Source: a virus
Virus record (IMG/VR): IMGVR_UViG_3300034117_000531
Span: 1 to 20,897 of that record
Direction: 5' to 3' (one strand)
DNA: 20,897 bases
Part shown: positions 9,578 through 20,897 of the stretch, one piece after another
How positions within the stretch are numbered: the stretch's first letter is position 1
Layout of the letters: every line of letters starts with the position of its first letter
Made by a program: the position numbers and the translations under genes
The notes under the pieces: generated by a model
Seen by the model: only the letters and a program-made list of their open reading frames with translations
Databases searched by the model: none
Told to the model about the DNA's origin: nothing

Positions 9578-10294
9578 ATGAAAATTAATCAATTACCATT
9601 TATAACTTCAGGTACAACTGTTACAAGTTTTGTAATAGTTGATGAGATACTACCGAGAAGAATCCGTTACACTGACTTAGTTGATCAAGTTGTTACAGAA
9701 ATAGGTGCCGCCGAATTTACTGGTCCCACAGGGCCTGCGGGTCCTAAAGGACCGACTGGACCAGCAGGTTCGAGTGTGGTCCCAGGCCCAACTGGCCCAA
9801 CTGGACCAGGTCTACCAGATGGTGGATCTATTGGGCAGGCGCTGATTAAAATTTCAGGTCTAAACTATGATTATGATTGGGGAACTGTTTCTGGCGGCAG
9901 CGGAGTTGGTCTATCTTCGAGAATATTAACTACTGGAACAACAGCATCTCTTGCTGCTAATGCTAGTGGAAATACAGAAGCAACTGGTTTTAAAACTTAT
10001 ATGTTGTCAAAGGTACAAACTTCTCATGCTGCATGGGTTCGAATTTACTCAGACAGCACTAGCAGAACTAATGATGCAGCAAGGACCGAAGGTAATGATC
10101 CGTTGCCAGGTAGCGGAGTTATTGCGGAAGTTATTACAACTGCATCCTCTCTAACTCAATTAATAACTCCCGGAGTTATAGGGTTTAATAATGATGTGCC
10201 TACCACTACTACTGTTTATCTATCTGTAACAAACAAAGACACGGTATCTAGAACAATCGATGTTACGTTAACATTACTACAACTGGAGTCTTAA
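9578..10294 (+). CDS. Collagen-like virion fibre/adhesin protein
   Basis: This 238-residue protein has an N-terminal segment (1-45) typical of attachment regions of small phage fibre proteins, an interrupted Gly-X-Y collagen stretch (49-79), and a C-terminal beta domain (about 105-238) containing FKTYMLSKVQTSHAAWVRIYS, DPLPGSGVIAEV, and QLITPGVIGFN. That C-terminal layout recurs in marine phage fibre tips. The collagen rod should trimerise and present the C-terminal domain outward, which would suit a receptor-binding or decoration role, but this is inferred. The ATG lies 3 bases after the stop of the giant gene, with GAGGGA 9 bases upstream; the protease gene follows after one base, so the three genes are probably co-transcribed. 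There is no enzymatic motif. Confidence 0.7.
   Translation: MKINQLPFITSGTTVTSFVIVDEILPRRIRYTDLVDQVVTEIGAAEFTGPTGPAGPKGPTGPAGSSVVPGPTGPTGPGLPDGGSIGQALIKISGLNYDYDWGTVSGGSGVGLSSRILTTGTTASLAANASGNTEATGFKTYMLSKVQTSHAAWVRIYSDSTSRTNDAARTEGNDPLPGSGVIAEVITTASSLTQLITPGVIGFNNDVPTTTTVYLSVTNKDTVSRTIDVTLTLLQLES
9722..9814 (+). repeat. Interrupted collagen-like Gly-X-Y repeat
   Basis: Residues 49-63 of the fibre protein are five perfect triplets (GPT GPA GPK GPT GPA). A short break (GSSVVP) is followed by GPT GPT GPG. Pro at X and Thr or Ala at Y are usual for bacterial and phage collagen-like segments, which lack hydroxyproline. The codons for glycine and proline vary, so the repeat is not a recent expansion of one DNA unit. 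Confidence 0.85.
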
Positions 10295-10295
10295 A

Positions 10296-11963
10296 ATGAG
10301 TTCTGAAGCTAGAGAGTATATTATAACTTTAAAAAATAAAGAAGATCTTGAATCTTTTTATAATGATATGGAGTTGTCTAACGGGGCAAAATTTATTCCT
10401 CACCGCGCCATTCCGGTAAAGGATAGAAGACCGGTAAGTCGAAATACTCATTATACGTTATATGCATCTGAAGCCGAACTTATTAAAAACGATCCTAGAG
10501 TGTTGCATGTTGAATTGAGCCTTGAAGAACAAGGTTTAAAATTTAAACCATTTTGGACACAAGCTAGTACGTTATGGAACAGGTCTAATACTCTAAGTTC
10601 ATCTCATAGAAACTGGGGAATATTAAGATCTGTTGAAGGAGTACAAAGAAGTGGATGGGGAACAAACGGAACTACTAATGTATCCGGAACAGTTAATACA
10701 ACTTCGAGCGGAAAATATGTTGATGTGGTTATAGTAGACGGACATTTTAATCCCTTACATCCCGAGTTTGCAGTCAATGCAGACGGCTCTGGTGGGTCTA
10801 GGGTTGTTCAATATAATTGGTTACAACATAACCTAGCTGTACTAGGAACAGCACCTGGTACATATGCTTATACTCCTTATATTGATCCTTCATATCCAGA
10901 TAACAATCTTGATGGAATATCTGACAGAACAGTAGACGGCGATCACGGGACACACGTTGCTTCTACAGCATGTGGTAACACCTACGGATGGGCAAGAGAT
11001 GCAAACATTTATAATATAAGTCCGTACTCAACGAATCCATCTAATACAGGAGCACGGACAATAGATTACATCAGAGAGTGGCATAGAACTAAGCCTATTA
11101 ATCCTGCCACAGGTAGACGTAATCCTACGGTTACTAATCACAGTTATGGAGTATCTATTGAAGTACCTATTTCTGAAATTACTATTGTTAGATTTCAAGG
11201 TACAGAATTTAGTGGTCCTTTTACGGAATCAGAATTAACCAATTATGGATTGGTTGTAAGTGCAGGAAACGTAGCATTTCCAATAAGAAGCGTTGCATAC
11301 GAGGAAGATTTAATAGATGCGATGAACGAAGGGATTATCGTTGTCGGAGCCGCAGGAAACGATTATACAAAAATTTCTAATTTTACAGTTGATACTGGGG
11401 ATGACTATAATAATTACATTGTTCAAAGTGATGTGTTTACTTATTACTATAACAGGGGCCCATTAGGTGCAGCATCTGGATCAATTTGTGTCGGCGGCGC
11501 AGACGCAAATACAACTGAAACAAAAATTGTTTACAGTAATTGCGGACCTAGGATAGACTTGTATGCTCCGGGAAGATTTATTGTTGGCGGAGTAAACTCT
11601 ACTACTGGAGTTACAACTGGAGATAGTAGAAACTCTGCGTATAGAGTGACTAAAAGATCTGGAACTAGTATGTCTAGCCCACAAGTTGCGGGAGTTCTAG
11701 CCTGTCTTGCAGAGCAATGGCCTACTATGAAACAATCACAGGCTAGGGATTACATTAGAAATAAAGCTAAAATAGGGCAAATTACTGCTACTACAGGCGG
11801 TATAGGTGACTATACAGACTTGCAAGGGTCTACAAATAGATTCCTATACTACAATAAAGAACGCCTAGATCAAGGTATGGTTGGTCCCAAAGTTAATCAA
11901 GGTAATCGATCTAGTACAGGGCACATATGGCCTAGAACTAAAATCTACCGATACGGAAGATAA
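10296..11963 (+). CDS. Subtilisin-family (S8) serine protease in the virion cassette
   Basis: 555 residues. The catalytic triad is complete: Asp148 in the VIVDGH strand, His217 in DHGTHVAS and Ser458 in SGTSMSSPQVAG; the oxyanion Asn is probably Asn355 in GAAGND. Residues 1 to about 85 start with REYIITLKN and include the segment SRNTHYTLYASEAEL...DPRVLHVEL, which resembles an I9-type inhibitor/pro-domain fold. No signal peptide is seen, which fits cytoplasmic assembly into a virion rather than export. GGAG lies 7 bases before the ATG, and only one base separates it from the collagen-like gene. It may cleave a tail protein during maturation, or attack the host envelope or surface proteins at infection; the sequence does not decide. 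The S8 assignment is firm and the role is inferred. Confidence 0.92.
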   Translation: MSSEAREYIITLKNKEDLESFYNDMELSNGAKFIPHRAIPVKDRRPVSRNTHYTLYASEAELIKNDPRVLHVELSLEEQGLKFKPFWTQASTLWNRSNTLSSSHRNWGILRSVEGVQRSGWGTNGTTNVSGTVNTTSSGKYVDVVIVDGHFNPLHPEFAVNADGSGGSRVVQYNWLQHNLAVLGTAPGTYAYTPYIDPSYPDNNLDGISDRTVDGDHGTHVASTACGNTYGWARDANIYNISPYSTNPSNTGARTIDYIREWHRTKPINPATGRRNPTVTNHSYGVSIEVPISEITIVRFQGTEFSGPFTESELTNYGLVVSAGNVAFPIRSVAYEEDLIDAMNEGIIVVGAAGNDYTKISNFTVDTGDDYNNYIVQSDVFTYYYNRGPLGAASGSICVGGADANTTETKIVYSNCGPRIDLYAPGRFIVGGVNSTTGVTTGDSRNSAYRVTKRSGTSMSSPQVAGVLACLAEQWPTMKQSQARDYIRNKAKIGQITATTGGIGDYTDLQGSTNRFLYYNKERLDQGMVGPKVNQGNRSSTGHIWPRTKIYRYGR

Positions 11964-12628: not shown

Positions 12629-14449
12629 ATGGCTAATTCATATACACTTCGATTCTCAGACCCTACAAACACTGGCACAGTGCAGGTATTAGGAACAACA
12701 TTAGGTCCTGGAAAGAACAATTATAGTACCAGTCTTGATCTAGTCGGGCCAGGATATACTAATTACGGTCTTGATACTACACAAAATTTTTTAAAATTGT
12801 TGGAAAATTTTGCAGGACCTAACCCTCCTATTAATTCAATTAAGGGACAACTATGGTATGATACTAGCAATCCTAACAGAAAAGTTTTAAGAGTTAATAA
12901 TGGTGACATTACAAGTAATCGATGGCCAGCTGCTAGCGGAATCTATCAACAAAATTCTGATCCTAGTTTAAGTTATAGTTCTGGAGTAACAATTGGAGAC
13001 ATCTGGGTTGATACAGTTTCGAATCAATTAAACATACGTGATGCCGATGGATGGACTCTTGTTGGTCCTAGTAGCTTATCTGGTACTTCAAAGTCCGGAG
13101 CAGAAGTTAGAGTCATTGAAACTAATACTAGTACCGTTGCTAATAAAGTAGAGTATCCTGTTATTTTAAACTGGGCAAACGGCAAAGTAGTTGAAATTAT
13201 CTCTTATAATGAATTTACTCCTAGAAGTGTTATTGATGGTTTTACTGTTATTAAGGCAGGAACAAATTTAACTTCCAGAATTCCTACAAGATACAACGGA
13301 GTAGCAGAAAGTGCTGCATCTTTATATCTCAGTTCGGGTGTAACCGTTAAAGCATCTGATGTATTAAGAAATAAATCTATACTTGCACCTCAGATTCATA
13401 CAGGTACCTTTGTAGTTGAGTCATCTGGCGGTATTCAAATTAAAAAAGATACAACTGCAAAAGCTATTAAAATATATAGTACTGCATCTGAGGCATTTGT
13501 TACCTACGCTAACACTAGCTCTTCTGGAATGAAGATAGGTATTTCTGATAGTTTCTTTGACAAGTCTTATTTAAAGCTCACATCTGCAGGATTTGTGGGA
13601 GTTAATAATCCTATTCCTACCAAAACATTAGATGTTACAGGTAGCGGTAAGTTTTCAGATGATGTAACAATTACTTCTAATACCGATTCTGCTCTAGATG
13701 TTTCCGGTGGCGGGTCGTTTGGAAGAACTTTAGAAGCAAACACATTAACTGTAGTAACAACTTCTTCAATGGTTGGGCTAATTACAATAGGTCAGCCCGG
13801 CGGAAGCGGCACTATTTTACAACCAGCAGAAAACAATTCATATGAATTAGGATCTCCAACTAGAGCATTTCGTAGAATTTATACATCACAAATTGGTTCA
13901 ACTGGATCTACACTTACAATATACGGAGTTGCTTCACAGGCTGTTCAATTAGAAGCTTCTCGACAATTTAGTGTTATTGGACAGTTTGCAACAACCGGAT
14001 CTGTATCATTTAATGGATTAGGTAATGTAGCTCTTAATACTACTGCTACCACAGCTTTAATTACAGCACAGTCAACAGTTACATCGACCACTGCTACTCA
14101 GACGTTGTTAGTAGTTGACACCGCAACATCTACAACTATAGAGCAAGGTGTAAGACAAATCAGCAAGGCAGATTTCTTATCAGATGTTTACGACATGGTA
14201 ATGCAGCCAGGGATGATTATTCCGTGGCCAACTTCAACACCTCCCTCAGCGGTTAAGCCAGACGGTCAGCCTACATGGATTTTATGCAATGGCGGGTCTA
14301 CATCTACCGTGTTACAGGGAGATTTATTTGGTGTAATTGGTTATACATTTGGTGGAGCAAGTGGTAGCTTTAGTGTTCCGGATTTGAGATATGCTACTAC
14401 CACTACAAACATTGTACCAGTTACAATGAACTATATTATAAAGACATAA
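12629..14449 (+). CDS. Fibre-like tail protein with C-terminal tail-collar domain
   Basis: 606 residues. Residues 37-79 carry the module shared with the next two genes (NYGLDTTQNFLKLLENF ... GQLWYDT), and a second copy-like motif follows (GDIWVDTVSNQLNIRD). The middle is rich in Thr, Ser and Gly, with fibre-type segments such as TGSGKFSDDVTITSN and YELGSPTRAFRRIYTS. The end, about 522-606, matches the phage tail-collar domain seen in T4 gp12-type proteins: GMIIPWPT, WILCNGG, LFGVIGYTFGG, FSVPDLR. The protein is probably trimeric and elongated, attached by its N-terminus and ending in a globular tip. GGAG lies 8 bases before the ATG. The gene directly follows the 209-residue gene and directly precedes its paralogue. 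Confidence 0.8.
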   Translation: MANSYTLRFSDPTNTGTVQVLGTTLGPGKNNYSTSLDLVGPGYTNYGLDTTQNFLKLLENFAGPNPPINSIKGQLWYDTSNPNRKVLRVNNGDITSNRWPAASGIYQQNSDPSLSYSSGVTIGDIWVDTVSNQLNIRDADGWTLVGPSSLSGTSKSGAEVRVIETNTSTVANKVEYPVILNWANGKVVEIISYNEFTPRSVIDGFTVIKAGTNLTSRIPTRYNGVAESAASLYLSSGVTVKASDVLRNKSILAPQIHTGTFVVESSGGIQIKKDTTAKAIKIYSTASEAFVTYANTSSSGMKIGISDSFFDKSYLKLTSAGFVGVNNPIPTKTLDVTGSGKFSDDVTITSNTDSALDVSGGGSFGRTLEANTLTVVTTSSMVGLITIGQPGGSGTILQPAENNSYELGSPTRAFRRIYTSQIGSTGSTLTIYGVASQAVQLEASRQFSVIGQFATTGSVSFNGLGNVALNTTATTALITAQSTVTSTTATQTLLVVDTATSTTIEQGVRQISKADFLSDVYDMVMQPGMIIPWPTSTPPSAVKPDGQPTWILCNGGSTSTVLQGDLFGVIGYTFGGASGSFSVPDLRYATTTTNIVPVTMNYIIKT

Positions 14450-14453
14450 TAAC

Positions 14454-15422
14454 ATGGCATATATCATATATAGAAGTGACGGTACAGTATTGTTAACCAT
14501 GGCAGATGGAGATGTAGATTCTATCACTACTAGTTTAGATTTAATAGGTAAGAATGTTAACAAGTACGGACAGTATGTAAACAATAATTTTGTAAAACTG
14601 TTGACTAATTTTGCTTCTCCTAATCAACCTTTACAAGCACAAGTTGGTCAGTTGTGGTACGACACAATTAACAGTAAATTAACAGTCTATGATGGTGTAG
14701 AGTTTAATCCTACATACGGCGCAACTATCAGTGGTACGCAACCCGTAACAACAAGTACAGGAGATTTGTGGTACAATAGCACTAATGGTGAATTTAAAAT
14801 CTGGCAAGGATATCCTTTAAATCAATGGTTCCTTGTTGATCCTAGAGTAGATCTACAAAATGGTAAAATGGGAGTTATGGTTCCTCCTGTAAATATTTTA
14901 GAGAATACGTTTAACCAAAAACAAAATGTTTCAGTGCTGTATTCTTACGGTGCTCCGACTGCGTTAGTGACTACTGCATCCTTTACAATGAGTGCTTCTA
15001 GCTCAACAGTGTACTTTGGACAGACAACAGCAACTAATGTTGTTAACGGTATTACAATTTTAGATGACCTTGATGTAAAAGGAAATTTATATGTAAGGGG
15101 TAATACAGTTTATGATAAGAATTTAACAACTGCATTTGATATTACCACATACGGTGATACAAAAACTGGCACAACTGGAACAAATCTAACAAACATCAAT
15201 GATGGAAACAATGCTTTAAGATTAAAAGCATTGCCTAATTTGTTTAGTACCGCAACCTATGTTATAGGATCTCAGGCTAAAGTGCTGTGTAATTACAATG
15301 CTCTTCTTTCTGTTAGACACTTTACATTAACAAATGTAGGAGGACTTGCTCGCTGGGATACTGTAGATGCATATTATAATTCTTTTACCACTTTTAACAA
15401 TAACATTACATATCAGGAATAA
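14454..15422 (+). CDS. Fibre-like tail protein, second paralogue, shorter
   Basis: 322 residues. Residues 29-71 are the shared module (LDLIGKNVNKYGQYVNNNF ... VGQLWYDT); then GDLWYNSTNGEFKIW repeats the GD-L-W motif. The remainder, including DLDVKGNLYVRGNTVYD, has fibre-like strands but no collar or GRVPCK domain. The C-terminus (RHFTLTNVGGLARWDTVDAYY) is not assigned. It begins 4 bases after the first paralogue, with only a weak AAAGA before the ATG, suggesting translational coupling. It may be a fibre segment, a connector or a partner of the neighbouring paralogues; this is inferred from order and shared N-terminus only. Confidence 0.65.
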   Translation: MAYIIYRSDGTVLLTMADGDVDSITTSLDLIGKNVNKYGQYVNNNFVKLLTNFASPNQPLQAQVGQLWYDTINSKLTVYDGVEFNPTYGATISGTQPVTTSTGDLWYNSTNGEFKIWQGYPLNQWFLVDPRVDLQNGKMGVMVPPVNILENTFNQKQNVSVLYSYGAPTALVTTASFTMSASSSTVYFGQTTATNVVNGITILDDLDVKGNLYVRGNTVYDKNLTTAFDITTYGDTKTGTTGTNLTNINDGNNALRLKALPNLFSTATYVIGSQAKVLCNYNALLSVRHFTLTNVGGLARWDTVDAYYNSFTTFNNNITYQE

Positions 15423-15424
15423 TT

Positions 15425-16693
15425 ATGCCTTACATTCTCAATAAAACAGATGGAACACAGATTACGATAGTACAAGATGCTTCGTTGGATCTCACAACTG
15501 ATTTAATTTTTGTTGGAAGAAACTATGCAGGTTACGGTGAATGGCAAAATGAAAACTTTTTAAAATTGCTTGAGAATTTTTCAAATACTATTCCTCCATC
15601 TAAACCGATTGATGGTCAACTTTGGTATGATACTGCAAACAAAAGACTCAATGTGTTTGATGGCGCAAATTGGAAAAGCATTTCCAATTTAGATGTTAAT
15701 ACTGAAAATCCTAACAATACTAAAATCTACGAATCAGGCGATCTATGGTTTGATAGTAGAGAAGAACAACTTTATGCCTACAATGGTGAGAATTTTGTTT
15801 TAATAGGTCCTCCTAGCGGCGCCGACACCAGAGCTCAATGGAAAGGCGATGTCGAATACGCACAAGAAGATACTGGTACACCAAAATACAATATTAAAGC
15901 TATTGTAGGAGCAAATGATGAAGTAGTTGCTATGGTTTCTGCAGAAACATATACAGTAACTCAAGCAGATCAACCACCACTACCAAAATATCCTATCTAT
16001 GATTCAGGTTCTACATCAACGATCAGTAAAGGTATTACTTTAAGAGGTGCAAACTACTCAACAGGTGAATCAGCGTCTCAGGGAATTTACTTTTGGGGAA
16101 GTGCAAGGCATGCAGTTAATGCAAATACTGCAACCACTGCAATCGGACTTGTTACAGATATTCCGCCAAGTGTAGGTACATTTCCTATTCCGTTTACAAC
16201 TGGCACAACTTATACCAAAACAGACGCAATCTACACTACTTCATCGTTTTATTATAATCCATTTGATAAAAGTGTTAAAGCTGATATTTTTAAAGGCGTT
16301 GCAACCAGTGCATATTATGCTGACATTGCTGAACGCTATGCCGCAGATGCGGCATATGAATTTGGAACTGTACTAATGTTAGGCGGAGAAAAAGAAGTTA
16401 CTCTTGCTACATTACAGGCAACGACAACGGTTGCAGGAGTAGTGAGTAAAAATCCGGCATATATGATGAATTCCGAGGCAGGAACCGACGAAACTCACCC
16501 CTATATTGCCTTAAAAGGTCGTGTTCCTTGCAAGATTTGTGGCCCCGTTAAGAAGGGCGACCTATTAGTTACCAGTGGATATAAACAGGGATATGCTACT
16601 AAGAAACAGGATCATGACAGTTCGGATGCTGTAATAGGAAAAGCCCTCGAAGATTTCGAAGGCTCTTTTGGTGTAATAGAAATTAAAGTTTAA
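15425..16693 (+). CDS. Fibre-like tail protein, third paralogue, with GRVPCK-type C-terminal domain
   Basis: 422 residues. Residues 26-70 are the shared N-terminal module (NYAGYGEWQNENFLKLLENF ... GQLWYDT), followed by GDLWFDSREEQLYAYNG. The last 120 residues begin SAYYADIAERYAADAAYEFG, then VLMLGG, VAGVVSKNPAYMMNS, ALKGRVPCKICGPVKKGD and VIGKALED; this layout is common at the end of phage fibre proteins and is similar to domains reported with intramolecular chaperone or autoproteolytic roles, but I see no proof of cleavage. AGGA lies 6 bases before the ATG. Its stop overlaps the thyA stop on the other strand in TTAA. The end of its coding region also contains a hairpin with flanking T-runs (see terminator). 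Confidence 0.75.
   Translation: MPYILNKTDGTQITIVQDASLDLTTDLIFVGRNYAGYGEWQNENFLKLLENFSNTIPPSKPIDGQLWYDTANKRLNVFDGANWKSISNLDVNTENPNNTKIYESGDLWFDSREEQLYAYNGENFVLIGPPSGADTRAQWKGDVEYAQEDTGTPKYNIKAIVGANDEVVAMVSAETYTVTQADQPPLPKYPIYDSGSTSTISKGITLRGANYSTGESASQGIYFWGSARHAVNANTATTAIGLVTDIPPSVGTFPIPFTTGTTYTKTDAIYTTSSFYYNPFDKSVKADIFKGVATSAYYADIAERYAADAAYEFGTVLMLGGEKEVTLATLQATTTVAGVVSKNPAYMMNSEAGTDETHPYIALKGRVPCKICGPVKKGDLLVTSGYKQGYATKKQDHDSSDAVIGKALEDFEGSFGVIEIKV
16639..16668 (-). terminator. Hairpin with T-tracts on both sides, probable terminator of folA-thyA
   Basis: The hairpin at 16643-16663 pairs GCC with GGC and TCGAA with TTCGA, with one C-A mismatch and a GAT loop. On the minus strand it is followed by TTTT and lies 27 bases beyond the thyA stop, a normal place for a terminator. 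On the plus strand it is followed by TCTTTT but sits within the fibre coding sequence, upstream of its stop, where moving ribosomes would be expected to keep it open. Its strength is not measured here. Confidence 0.45.
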
Positions 16694-17574
16694 ACAGCCA
16701 TTGGTGCTTTAATAGCATCGTGACTAGTATAATTTACCAATTCAATATCGTCCATTGTAAACCCTGTGATGTTTTTGACAGCAGGGTTTAGTTTTAACTC
16801 TGGCAACGGTAATGGCTTACGTGCTAATTGCTCGTTAACCTGATCAACATGATTGGTGTAGATATGAGCGTCACCTAGGGTAATAATAAGTTCGCCGACT
16901 TCTAATTCACAGGCTTGTGCAATCATATGTGTGAACAGTGCATAGCTGGCAATGTTAAACGGTACTCCGAGGAACATGTCTGCACTACGTTGATACATTG
17001 AACAACTTAGTTTCCCGTTGCTTACGTAGAATTGACTCATCATATGGCACGGAGGTAATGCCATTAGTTCTAGTTCGCCTGGATTCCATGCAGTAATGAT
17101 ATGTCTACGACCGTAAGGGTCTTTCTTTAAGCCGTCAATTAAATTAAGCAACTGGTCGCAATTTTGTAGGACAACTTTGTTAATACGAACTAACGGAGCA
17201 CGCCACTTTCGCCATTGCACGCCGTAGACACGACCGAGATCACCTGCATGCCGCTGGAGTCGTTTGTTTGTCCAGTAAGGTGCTGTGGCATTATCTGACC
17301 ATATAGTTTTCTTATCGGTATAACGCTCACCGTGTAGGATTTCCTTTAAGCGATTCTCATCACCACTGCCTTCAATAAACCAAAGCAGTTCGCTAACACA
17401 GGCACGCCATGCTAGCTTCTTAGTAGTAACAGCAGGAAATCCTTTCTGCAGATCAAATCGCAATTGTACACCGAACTTACTAATAGTCCCGACTCCAGTT
17501 CTATCGGGTCGCTGTTCACCTGTTGCTAAAATGTCTTTAAGTGCATTGAGATATGCTTGTTCTGGATGTGTCAT
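16690..17574 (-). CDS. thyA: Thymidylate synthase
   Basis: Converts dUMP to dTMP with methylene-tetrahydrofolate as methyl donor, releasing dihydrofolate that the neighbouring DHFR recycles. All expected sites are present in 294 residues: Glu62 in ELLWF, the catalytic Cys176 in LPPCH, the Arg pair 156-157 in GRRHI, Arg196/Ser197/Asp199 in QRSADMF, Asn207 in FNIASYA, and His237 and Tyr239 in DAHIYTNH. The conserved C-terminus ends in PMAV. The length is near that of T4 Td (286 residues); no intron interrupts it. Its start ATG overlaps the folA stop (ATGA), as in T4 frd-td. Hand counts of sampled lines give about 42-57% G+C, higher than sampled folA or fibre DNA, so separate acquisition is possible. 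It is the last gene of the minus-strand run. Confidence 0.96.
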   Translation of the reverse strand: MTHPEQAYLNALKDILATGEQRPDRTGVGTISKFGVQLRFDLQKGFPAVTTKKLAWRACVSELLWFIEGSGDENRLKEILHGERYTDKKTIWSDNATAPYWTNKRLQRHAGDLGRVYGVQWRKWRAPLVRINKVVLQNCDQLLNLIDGLKKDPYGRRHIITAWNPGELELMALPPCHMMSQFYVSNGKLSCSMYQRSADMFLGVPFNIASYALFTHMIAQACELEVGELIITLGDAHIYTNHVDQVNEQLARKPLPLPELKLNPAVKNITGFTMDDIELVNYTSHDAIKAPMAV

Positions 17575-18047
17575 AAGTTGTATTCTTTTATTGTATATTT
17601 TATCGGGTCATTAAGTATAGCGTGTTCTTTAACCTTTGTAAAGTGTTCTTTTACATAGGTAAGGTCAAAAAACTTATCACACTCATAGTCTGCATCTATT
17701 TCGGTAATATAAAATCTGTCAATAATATCGAGATATTGTTCATAAACGGCACTTCCGCCGATAATGAAAATTTCCTTATCAGGGTATTCTACAGAACAAA
17801 AATCTAAGGCAGCACCGCAGTCGTCAAAGGTGTGATCACCTAGCACTCTCTTTCTGCTTATCACTACATTAATTCTATTAGGTAAAGATTTACCCAAACT
17901 ATCATATGTGGTTGAACCCATAATAACAACTTGATTAGTTGTCATTTGTTTAAACCACTGCATATCACCCCTAAGGTGAGGCCAGGGCATTTGACCATTA
18001 AATCCTATGCCCTGGTTTCGTTCAACTGCAACTAAACAGTTAATCAT
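17571..18047 (-). CDS. folA: Dihydrofolate reductase
   Basis: Reduces dihydrofolate to tetrahydrofolate with NADPH, feeding thymidylate synthase. 158 residues, a usual bacterial length. Visible sites: the GIG loop (13-15), PW at 21-22, the acidic substrate contact Asp28 in GDMQWFK, the LPNR motif with Arg58, the IIGG of the cofactor loop (95-98) followed by AVYEQYL, and ITEID (114-118). Residues 43-48 read MGSTTY where cellular enzymes usually have MGRxTx, so one NADPH-phosphate Arg is missing; Arg65 in SRKR may compensate. T4 DHFR also lacks that Arg. Its start shares one base with the stop of the 201-residue gene (TAATG) and has no clear ribosome site, so it is probably translated by coupling. 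It is likely to be co-transcribed with thyA. Confidence 0.95.
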   Translation of the reverse strand: MINCLVAVERNQGIGFNGQMPWPHLRGDMQWFKQMTTNQVVIMGSTTYDSLGKSLPNRINVVISRKRVLGDHTFDDCGAALDFCSVEYPDKEIFIIGGSAVYEQYLDIIDRFYITEIDADYECDKFFDLTYVKEHFTKVKEHAILNDPIKYTIKEYNL

Positions 18048-18652
18048 TAAGCTTCGGCTTTTGTTGCCTTAGCCGTCTTCTTAACTGGCGGAGACATTTC
18101 GTCTGCTTTGCGGCGCATCTCTGCTGCCTGCTTAGAAAGTTTGTCTGCCATTGACCGCAAGTCAGATGCAGTAACTGGTGCTTCTGCAATTGTAGGAGCA
18201 GTGTCGACAATAATATCATCGACAATAATTTCTTCCTTGGCTTCTTTTTTAGTAACGGTAGATTTTTTCTGACCATCACTAACAGCCAAATCCTCAACAG
18301 TGATTCCTTTCTGAGTTGCAATCATTTCATTGAGTTCATTCAATGGAATTTGTGTTTGAGTATTGGGAGTCATTAACACGAGATTAGTGGGAACTTTTTT
18401 AAGTTGTCCACGGGCGTGTAACCAACTTAGCATTACATCACCGTCTGGGAATCGGCGTGTTGCTAAGATGTCAGCTAACTCGTTTGCTTGTTGACCGGAT
18501 TCACTTTGAATAACGCTCATCAAAGCATCGTGATTAGCATCTGGCAAGCCACTAGTCCCAACTACTAATGCGTTGTTGGGCTCTCCCGGAACAGTCCTAT
18601 AAACTACTGCTACTCGAGCAGCATTATTTTTCATTTTTCCCACATGTTTCAT
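18047..18652 (-). CDS. Conserved phage protein of unknown function with Ala/Lys-rich tail
   Basis: A 201-residue protein without a recognised enzymatic motif. The N-terminal part (about 1-125) is ordered: AVVYRTVPGEPNNALVVGTSGLP, then a helix, LATRRFPDGDVMLSWLHA and TNLVLMTP. The last 60-70 residues are low-complexity, with Val/Ile/Asp runs and a helical, charged end (KQAAEMRRKAD ... KKTAKATKAEA) that could bind nucleic acid or act as a coiled coil. I believe similar proteins occur in marine T4-like phages but cannot confirm that here. AGGAGA lies 5 bases before the ATG, a good ribosome site; an internal Met at residue 7 is less likely as start. The gene follows the 80-residue gene after 12 bases and overlaps folA by one base. 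Confidence 0.6.
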   Translation of the reverse strand: MKHVGKMKNNAARVAVVYRTVPGEPNNALVVGTSGLPDANHDALMSVIQSESGQQANELADILATRRFPDGDVMLSWLHARGQLKKVPTNLVLMTPNTQTQIPLNELNEMIATQKGITVEDLAVSDGQKKSTVTKKEAKEEIIVDDIIVDTAPTIAEAPVTASDLRSMADKLSKQAAEMRRKADEMSPPVKKTAKATKAEA

Positions 18653-18664
18653 GTGAATCTCCTT

Positions 18665-18907
18665 TTATTGTTTTGGTGCTTTGTCGTCTGACTTAGGAGG
18701 TGCAACAGCATTTAAGAATGCGTTTAGTTTATCAAATACTGTGCCTACTCCGGACGCTTCTGAAGCTCCAAATGCCCCTCTACGAACTGCAACATCAATG
18801 ATCGCACGGATATTTGTTAGATCAGTGATTGTAAGATCTGGTTGTTGCGGTGGCGCAGCCTCTGGAGTTACTTGACTAGCGTCTTGAACTGTTTCTTGAT
18901 TTTCCAT
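18665..18907 (-). CDS. Small conserved phage protein of unknown function (80 residues)
   Basis: Acidic Gln/Pro/Ala-rich N-terminus (about 1-24), then a compact helical core (LTITDLTNIRAIIDVAVRRG ... ASGVGTVFDKLNAFLNAV) and a short charged tail. The pattern 'I-D-V-A-x-R-R-G-A-F-x-A-x-E-x-x-x-V-G-x-x-F-D-K-L' recalls small proteins common in marine T4-like phages. No function is known to me. The start codon directly follows the stop of the 96-residue gene (TAAATG), with AGGAA upstream of it, so translation is coupled. It shares the putative late promoter with the flanking genes, which suggests a virion or assembly role, but this is inferred. Confidence 0.6.
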   Translation of the reverse strand: MENQETVQDASQVTPEAAPPQQPDLTITDLTNIRAIIDVAVRRGAFGASEASGVGTVFDKLNAFLNAVAPPKSDDKAPKQ

Positions 18908-19198
18908 TTAATTAATTCCTTTTTTATGTAAATGTTGACATCCTAATGATAACATAGTTAGTTCTTTAGGATCCTCGATTCCTATTTCAATAACAGAAAT
19001 CATTTTCCTATTTGCATCTAAACTATATTTTCCTTGTATAGCGTATCTGCTATTTAAATTATATTCGATCCATTGTTCTATAATTTTGGTATCAAACTTT
19101 GAATCAATAGAGATTTTGGAAAAATGTTCTGGAATAAAAGATAGTTTTCTAAATCCTAGAACATTTAAAGCATTTACCGTTCCTCTATTTAATGCCAT
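18908..19198 (-). CDS. Small protein of unknown function behind a T4-type late box (96 residues)
   Basis: No family is recognised. The sequence begins MALNRGTVNALNVLGFRKLSF, then an amphipathic mix with two likely beta strands (RYAIQGKYSLD, KMISVIEIGIED) and ends with a His/Lys-rich helix (LGCQHLHKKGIN). No signal peptide, membrane segment or catalytic motif is visible. The ATG at 19198 is preceded by AGGT about 5-8 bases upstream and, further up, by an exact TATAAATA box. It begins 12 bases after the stop of the metallopeptidase-VWA gene and is followed with no gap by the 80-residue gene. It heads what looks like a late operon of three unknown genes then folA and thyA. Confidence 0.6.
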   Translation of the reverse strand: MALNRGTVNALNVLGFRKLSFIPEHFSKISIDSKFDTKIIEQWIEYNLNSRYAIQGKYSLDANRKMISVIEIGIEDPKELTMLSLGCQHLHKKGIN

Positions 19199-19210
19199 AA
19201 TCTACCTATA

Positions 19211-20479
19211 TTATTTATAATGCGCGGTCTGGCCGAATGGAGAAATTATGGCATCGTTACCGTGAATAATAAAGATAGTATCACAATAATCTTCATCTCC
19301 CCAGCTACCGCAGGGATAACCGTCAGTAAACATAATAAACTTCTTGGGTTGAATATCATTGTACTTCATGAATTCCCAGTTTGCATCAAAATCAGTACCA
19401 CCGCCACCTTGGCAATCGTACTCGTTAATATCATCAGCAGTATCTCCGGTAAATTGTTTGTAACCGTATACGTTAGTATCAAAACACCACAAATCTAATT
19501 TAAAGTCCTTGTACTCATCCATAATACCTTTGACTTCTGACAAGAAATCTTTAGCCATAGCATCTGAAATACTACCAGACATATCGATTGCTACAGATAC
19601 GTCAATAGTTTCTTCATTCATCATACCTGGCAAGATAGCGCCACATTGTTGACTCTTGCGGTTAGGGCGAGCAAAGCTAAAATTGCTTTTAAGAATACTT
19701 TGGATATTCATGCGCAACAGTTGTCGCCAGTCCATCTTTGGCTCAGTAAAGTCTTTGATCATTCTAGCAATACCTGCAGGCACTTTACCTGCACCTGCTG
19801 ATTGAGCAGCCGCTACCATAGCTTCTTTGATCTCATCACGGATTTGTTTCTTTTCTTCTGCAGTCAAACGTGGCCGGCCCTTACCACTTCCGTTAATTTC
19901 TTCTCCATCTTTGCCTTCACCTTCCCCATCTTCACCCTCACCATCTAGGTGTTCGTCGAGCAATTCCCCTAATTGGGAAATATCAATCTTTTCAGCCTTG
20001 TCGTAAAGGTCCTGATAAATCTGCTCGTAACTCCATCCGCGATATTTGTCGTCCTGGAAAATCTTAATAAAGCTAGGAACTGTACCGATACGTTCGTCTT
20101 TAAGAATTTGGTTAGCGGCATAGTCTGCGGCAATGTTTGACAGTTGAGGGTCGCGCCCGTCTCGCCGACCCATATGATCAAATACATTATGGAGGACCTC
20201 GTGTGCAAAGCCAAACTCTGCTTCCTTAGGAGTAAGTTTATTTACAAATCCTAAATTAAAATAAAAATTGCGACCATCTGTTGCAAGGGTTTGACACCAG
20301 TCGCTAGCCTCTACCATTTTCATTCGGGTAGCAAGATTACCAAAAAACGGATGGCGGAGCAAGAGCCCAACTCGTGCGGTAATTAGTTTATCGAGAATTT
20401 TAGCTTTTTCACTTTCGCTAAAAGTTTTACCTAACCAATCTTGTTTCTTTTGTTTTTCTTGTTTCATTACTGCGGACAT
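19211..20479 (-). CDS. Two-domain metallopeptidase-like and VWA (MIDAS) protein
   Basis: 422 residues. The N-terminal domain has HEVLH at 93-97 and NIAADYAAN at 115-123, the layout of a zinc metallopeptidase-like fold in which the Asp of the second motif could be a third ligand. Residues 169-198 form a very acidic Gly/Glu/Asp linker; 203-225 is a charged helix. The C-terminal VWA-type domain shows a complete MIDAS: DMSGS (299-303), GGGTDF with Thr362, and TDG with Asp386. The family resembles DUF2201-type proteins, which are commonly encoded beside MoxR-type AAA+ ATPases. Here the upstream neighbour is such an ATPase, probably. AGGAG lies 6 bases before the ATG, and a sigma70-like promoter precedes it. 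Its role in a phage is unknown; protein remodelling or cleavage with the ATPase is the natural suggestion. Confidence 0.85.
   Translation of the reverse strand: MSAVMKQEKQKKQDWLGKTFSESEKAKILDKLITARVGLLLRHPFFGNLATRMKMVEASDWCQTLATDGRNFYFNLGFVNKLTPKEAEFGFAHEVLHNVFDHMGRRDGRDPQLSNIAADYAANQILKDERIGTVPSFIKIFQDDKYRGWSYEQIYQDLYDKAEKIDISQLGELLDEHLDGEGEDGEGEGKDGEEINGSGKGRPRLTAEEKKQIRDEIKEAMVAAAQSAGAGKVPAGIARMIKDFTEPKMDWRQLLRMNIQSILKSNFSFARPNRKSQQCGAILPGMMNEETIDVSVAIDMSGSISDAMAKDFLSEVKGIMDEYKDFKLDLWCFDTNVYGYKQFTGDTADDINEYDCQGGGGTDFDANWEFMKYNDIQPKKFIMFTDGYPCGSWGDEDYCDTIFIIHGNDAIISPFGQTAHYK
19212..19219 (-). promoter_or_regulatory. Exact T4 late-promoter box TATAAATA
   Basis: On the minus strand the sequence reads TATAAATA, 13 bases before the ATG of the 96-residue gene, and overlaps the stop codon of the metallopeptidase-VWA gene. 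The T4-type late box places the start about six bases beyond it, near the GGTAG of the ribosome site, so the leader would be only about 8 bases. This is short but possible. An exact 8-base match in AT-rich DNA is not proof. Confidence 0.5.
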
Positions 20480-20505
20480 TTATTACTCCTAGTTGCGATA
20501 GTACT

Positions 20506-20534
20506 ATTATACATTCAATTTATCAAAAGAGCAA
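20506..20534 (-). promoter_or_regulatory. Sigma70-like promoter of the metallopeptidase-VWA gene
   Basis: On the minus strand TTGCTC (20534-20529) and TATAAT (20511-20506) are separated by 17 bases, with the -10 about 27 bases before the ATG at 20479. The -10 is a perfect consensus and the -35 matches at three of six. A terminator lies immediately upstream, so this gene seems to have its own transcription start rather than reading through from the ATPase. Confidence 0.5.
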
Positions 20535-20536
20535 GT

Positions 20537-20555
20537 AAAAAGGCCCCTAAGGGCC
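20537..20555 (-). terminator. Rho-independent terminator after the AAA+ ATPase gene
   Basis: On the minus strand GGCCC and GGGCC pair across a four-base TTAG loop and are followed at once by TTTTT (fwd positions 20541-20537). The hairpin lies just past the stop codon at 20562-20560 and upstream of the metallopeptidase-VWA promoter, so it would close the ATPase transcript. Confidence 0.75.
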
Positions 20556-20559
20556 AATT

Positions 20560-20897
20560 TTAACCTTCCATTGCCTGGATAATGTACTTGCCGTACTTAT
20601 CGTGGAACTTGTCAAAGTTCTTCAATTTGCTAGCATCAAACGGCAGTTGATAGTTAGTCAACGCAACCTTTGCACCCATAACAACTAATTCAGTTGGGAA
20701 ATTATCCATCATAAAGCCAAAGAAATTGTCTGCCATTGCATCCCAATCTTTGATCTTCTTGCGGTCAGCTTCTTGAAGCTCGTAGCACAGGCTAATAGTA
20801 AGTGAATACATCGCAGAGATTTCTTTGATATCACACTTCTTAACCTTACCTGCCAGAATGTCTTCTGGCTTAGGCATCTGTTTTGCAACCTTACGGT
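20560..20897 (-). CDS. C-terminal end of a probable MoxR-type AAA+ ATPase (5' part outside window)
   Basis: The frame is open to the right edge, so the ATG at 20877 is likely internal; residues RKVAKQ precede it. About 112 residues are visible and contain no Walker motif, which would be upstream. The mainly helical region with AMYSLTISLCYELQ, MMDNFPTELVVMGAKVALTNY and FDKFHDKYGKYII resembles the C-terminal part of the AAA+ (MoxR) ATPases I recall from marine T4-like phages. The metallopeptidase-VWA gene downstream is the typical partner of such an ATPase and supports the assignment. A terminator directly follows the stop. Without the ATPase core, the assignment remains provisional. Confidence 0.45.
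   Translation of the reverse strand, partial: RKVAKQMPKPEDILAGKVKKCDIKEISAMYSLTISLCYELQEADRKKIKDWDAMADNFFGFMMDNFPTELVVMGAKVALTNYQLPFDASKLKNFDKFHDKYGKYIIQAMEG

Follow-up and report, generated by a model that had tools for sequence, protein, structure and literature searches.

Gene content of the locus

The window (the whole 20,897-nucleotide stretch of viral DNA analyzed here) ends in two neighboring genes on the minus strand, one encoding a protein that joins a putative metallopeptidase domain to a VWA domain and the other, cut by the window end, encoding a MoxR-type AAA+ ATPase. The features of this locus are as follows.

19211-20479, minus strand: VWA-metallopeptidase gene (DUF2201_N plus DUF2201), 422 aa, ATG start; Pfam and PHROGs profiles
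19571-19585, minus strand: MIDAS motif DMSGS, residues 299-303; D299, S301 and S303 invariant where present
20111-20125, minus strand: D119-x3-N123, invariant in a 172-protein comparison
20189-20203, minus strand: HEVLH zinc-binding motif, residues 93-97; motif position and conservation
20506-20534, minus strand: promoter-like TTGCTC-N17-TATAAT preceding the VWA gene; pattern scan, with the -10 recurring in relatives
20542-20555, minus strand: intrinsic terminator GGCCCTTAGGGGCC-TTTTT between the ATPase and VWA genes; hairpin and T-run
20560-20895, minus strand: MoxR-type AAA+ ATPase, C-terminal 111 residues, gene continuing off the window; phrog_1297, E = 9.3e-9

Comparison of the 422-residue protein with Pfam identified PF13203 (DUF2201_N, putative metallopeptidase; E = 1.3e-42, 146.8 bits against a cut-off of 23.2) and PF09967 (DUF2201, VWA-like; E = 9.1e-16, 58.5 bits against a cut-off of 26.4). 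NIAADYAAN occupies residues 115-123, and the remaining MIDAS residues are T362 in GGGGT and D386 in FTDG. The motif positions and the two Pfam models thus bear out the preliminary description of a 422-residue protein with HEVLH, NIAADYAAN and a complete MIDAS. As read from the sequence, the five motifs are placed as a putative zincin and a complete MIDAS require, with D119 as a candidate third metal ligand; among shuffled versions of the protein, HExxH followed by DxSxS more than 150 aa further on arose in 0.01%. The predicted structure reached a modest pTM of 0.51 and resembled integrin I domains and the MIDAS domains of MDN1/Rea1 in a comparison with PDB folds; none of the listed folds matched its metallopeptidase half. 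A PDB sequence search with the VWA protein as query returned no convincing match. The protein also matched phrog_1314 (E = 7.9e-109), which, like many RefSeq records, is labeled HNH endonuclease. We give virtually no credence to that identity and rejected it, since in the window protein and four divergent relatives the Pfam matches comprised DUF2201_N and DUF2201 only and no HNH domain; the label on DUF2201 VWA proteins looks like a propagated error.

The ATPase fragment aligns to positions 261-354 of the 356-position phrog_1297 profile. As the window holds the C-terminal end only, the ATPase core was read from L003, one of three relatives (L003-L005) that share 99.5% identity with the window across 14214-20897. 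Inside the ATPase gene, at 20698-20897, identity to L003 falls from 100% to about 83%, reflecting either strain variation or a mixed contig end. The complete gene in this relative (L003:3838-4920) encodes 360 aa with Walker A (GPPGIGKS), Walker B (ILFLDE) and sensor-1-like (AAGN) motifs, and the full-length protein scored above the Pfam cut-off for AAA_3 and AAA_5. The Walker motifs that the preliminary description had proposed to look for upstream of 20897 are therefore present, and an AAA+ core does lie there, as seen in L003. A high-confidence AlphaFold2 model of the ATPase (mean pLDDT 88.5) gave NorQ, NorQ-NorD VWA complexes and CbbQ2 as its best PDB matches by Foldseek (E about 1e-9, TM up to 0.69 on target), and the nearest PDB sequence match was midasin. 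Given that the model is closest to NorQ and CbbQ2, the predicted fold is that of the MoxR group; together with the phrog_1297 match, this upholds the earlier reading of the neighboring gene as the C-terminal end of a MoxR-type ATPase.

Between the two genes, the terminator and the promoter-like element noted earlier are both present in the window and recur in relatives. An automatic scan found a terminator in 79 of 81 ATPase-VWA intergenic regions, with stems that vary (GGCCC/GGGCC, GGACCC/GGGTCC and others) and a structure that is kept. The -10 hexamer TATAAT recurs throughout the intergenic regions listed for relatives. The standard promoter scanner omitted TTGCTC-N17-TATAAT because of its weak -35 and listed an overlapping site instead; the pattern TTGnnn-16/18-TATAAT occurs only three times in the window, both strands counted. 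An Rfam search of the window gave no match. From the terminator and promoter-like element we infer that the ATPase and VWA genes may be separately timed.

Pairing of the two genes across relatives

In the first set of viral relatives together with three annotated phages, the ATPase was located upstream of the VWA gene in 79/79 loci with room for it, and an ATPase was present somewhere in 15/15 whole records or long contigs checked. These counts support the preliminary description of the two as a genuine pair, and the refuting case that it had named, VWA homologues standing without adjacent ATPases, did not emerge from them. Of 223 loci, among which are some redundant entries and two views of the window itself, 197 had the ATPase directly upstream; at the other loci it overlapped in the stop-to-stop count or lay 0.6-3.6 kb off, or the contig ended. 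The locus scans used alignment subsets A3 and A4 because alignment A1 was too divergent. Among loci where the ATPase was missing, L010, L044, L072 and L185 are truncated and L095 has an ATPase elsewhere in its genome, while L223 and L224, fragments of one distant relative, had no ATPase in the available flanks. In FV3 and Vibrio phage 1.025.O both genes are present but separated. In a phage collection of 50,697 records, the VWA protein had 759 matching records and the ATPase 827, and the counts per host genus were nearly equal; this agreement is one of totals and not record by record.

The sole match in the genome-contig search, L104, was an N4-like ATPase-VWA pair on a contig of 69 kb that had been assigned to an archaeal MAG; the contig is probably a misbinned N4-like phage genome. 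In Vibrio phage VCO139 (L090:567-4555), the ATPase gene is fragmented, an HNH endonuclease gene separates its parts, and Rfam detected a group I intron (RF00028) just upstream of the split gene; homing elements therefore appear to have invaded the ATPase gene.

Relation to described systems

The window pair belongs to an already known kind of system, so its earlier billing as an undescribed one does not hold. A MoxR-vWA-metallopeptidase pair has been described in group 2.2 jumbo phages, with ASV44729.1/ASV44728.2 of Agrobacterium phage Atu_ph07 as a named example (Iyer et al., 2021; PMC7824862), and a MoxR-type pair in Bacillus phage 0305phi8-36 had been pointed out in a 2007 paper. The Atu_ph07 proteins are homologous to those of the window, with the same domains and gene order and about 45% identity between the VWA proteins, but have HQxxH where the window protein has HExxH. 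In the N4-like phages (Schitoviridae), gp24 (ATPase) and gp25 (vWFA/DUF2201) of N4 are core genes; in N4 itself, genes 24 and 25 are middle transcripts. They represent a podovirus version of the pair, of the same two families in the same order with the active-site residues conserved, although identity is about 26-29% and the podovirus genomes are smaller. Our literature search found no reported function for N4 gp24/gp25, no experimental study of the phage pair and nothing that tested directly for proteolysis or complex formation.

Outside these phages, the CbbQ-CbbO and NorQ-NorD pairs are closest to the predicted ATPase fold and have a VWA partner with a MIDAS. To our knowledge, CbbO and NorD are without a DUF2201_N metallopeptidase. 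The N-terminal region of CbbO has no recognizable homology; in CbbQO an acidic residue of the substrate is presumed to be the ligand of the VWA MIDAS, and nearly all MIDAS mutants retained ATPase activity but failed to activate the substrate (PMC4660213). The p618/p892 proteins of Acidianus two-tailed virus are likewise a viral MoxR-VWA pair and interact physically (PMC4660213), but are without the peptidase domain (PMC7824862). Membership in the MoxR-vWA ternary conflict systems (VMAP, iSTAND, beta-propeller) was considered and rejected, as PADLOC gave no defence-system match for either protein and Pfam bpMoxR appeared only below cut-off. Inspection of the pair loci, made without a profile search, noticed no third conserved component.

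Conservation of the active sites

Residues were compared in a set of 172 distinct proteins, with identities as low as about 23%, taken from jumbo phages, Vequintavirinae and Schitoviridae. The results showed that H93, H97, D119, N123, D299, S301, S303, T362 and D386 are kept wherever the sequence reaches, and that E94 is kept in all but one clear exception, Atu_ph07, in which it is Q. The Atu_ph07 protein (L082:5941-7230) reads HQILH and keeps the remaining motif and the ATPase pairing; thus, catalysis has probably been lost in at least this one member, although the pair persists. For the VWA-metallopeptidase gene, dN/dS was about 0.05 against two relatives. In addition, DUF2201 proteins encoded on plasmids (Cupriavidus, Burkholderia, Rhodovastum) share HExxH, D-x3-N, the MIDAS and an upstream AAA partner, but differ in having an extra gene between the two or, in one case, an IS21 insertion. 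Together, the residue conservation, the dN/dS and the plasmid homologues indicate strong constraint on both the putative peptidase site and the MIDAS. Among the plasmid loci L225-L227 (Burkholderiales, Rhodovastum), the L225 pair adjoins type IV secretion genes, with the IS21 element lying between.

Proposed mechanism and possible targets

We consider it probable that the pair works as an ATP-powered remodeler whose VWA partner uses its MIDAS to choose a substrate, to which it delivers a zincin protease. The upstream gene would supply a MoxR/CbbQ-type AAA+ ATPase acting as a hexamer, and the downstream gene its predicted VWA cofactor, which begins with a zincin-type metallopeptidase domain and has its VWA domain C-terminally. 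By analogy, the MIDAS would grip a specific target protein by an acidic residue and the ATPase would remodel this target using ATP, upon which the tethered metallopeptidase may cut an exposed segment. The domains, motifs, conservation, gene pairing and NorQ/CbbQ-like predicted fold were seen directly; the hexamer, the MIDAS grip and the force are modeled on CbbQO, NorQD, RavA-ViaA and midasin, and the cutting step is read from the HExxH motif and its conservation alone. Against this mechanism stand the pTM of 0.51 of the VWA model, the failure of its metallopeptidase half to match any listed PDB fold, the HQILH of Atu_ph07 and the non-adjacent genes in some phages. A bolder version, which we hold to be rather unlikely, is that the two proteins form an AAA+ protease of new layout in which a MoxR motor would unfold a MIDAS-chosen substrate and pass it to a zinc peptidase that is part of the adaptor itself, for one important step common to jumbo phages, Vequintavirinae and N4-like phages.

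What the pair acts on may be a phage structural protein, a phage enzyme complex or a host protein. Virion assembly and the processing of structural proteins were proposed by Iyer et al. (2021), who cited the MoxR-vWA pair (p618/p892) of Acidianus two-tailed virus by analogy (PMC7824862), and a chaperone-protease that folds or processes phage structural proteins seems to us a tentative reading with somewhat less than an even chance. In line with it, a run of genes annotated as structural precedes the pair in phage 121Q, and the phAPEC6 ATPase gp265c ('MoxR ATPase'), whose gene adjoins gp264c (annotated 'N4 gp25-like'), was detected in virions by MS with 6 peptides and 19% coverage; however, the same virion list contains thymidylate synthase (gp259c), so that carry-over is possible, and makes no mention of gp264. 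The middle transcription of N4 genes 24 and 25 also speaks against an assembly role, as does the placement of the window pair, which shares its strand with the DHFR and thymidylate synthase genes and lies just ahead of them. The middle timing fits a middle-stage factor that would act in replication or nucleotide metabolism by maturing or remodeling a phage enzyme complex, a reading that we regard as possible but doubtful. It agrees with the promoter-like element owned by the VWA gene and with the presence of thyA, DHFR or dCTP deaminase within 4 kb downstream in 30/31 N4-like and 57/85 window-like loci with enough flank, these being raw counts without a background rate; yet clustering of middle genes is expected in any case, and no physical link is known between the pair and these three enzymes.

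The preliminary description had also raised host-complex takeover and defence evasion, for which no specific evidence emerged. Extraction and cleavage of a host protein by the pair appears rather unlikely: a substrate-selective protease of this sort is plausible in general, and middle-type timing in N4 would suit it, but the pair spans unrelated hosts, counts among the core genes of N4-like phages and lacks any defence-family match in PADLOC, and conservation as strong as that measured here does not suggest an arms-race factor.

The pair matters as a set of core genes in N4-like phages that is common in jumbo phages and widely mislabeled as HNH endonuclease. As far as our searches show, new elements are how widely the residues are conserved, the conserved terminator and promoter-like element, the connection with homologues on plasmids, the missing catalytic Glu of Atu_ph07 and the likely HNH mislabeling. 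Because the catalytic and MIDAS residues are almost completely conserved, simple mutants would be informative, and laboratory E. coli infected with N4 is a tractable setting.

Elsewhere in the window, on the plus strand, a subtilase-family serine protease (Peptidase_S8) is encoded at 10296-11963 within a cluster of likely structural genes, and a protein with collagen-like GPTGPAG repeats is encoded at 9578-10294, adjoining an open frame of 3190 residues.
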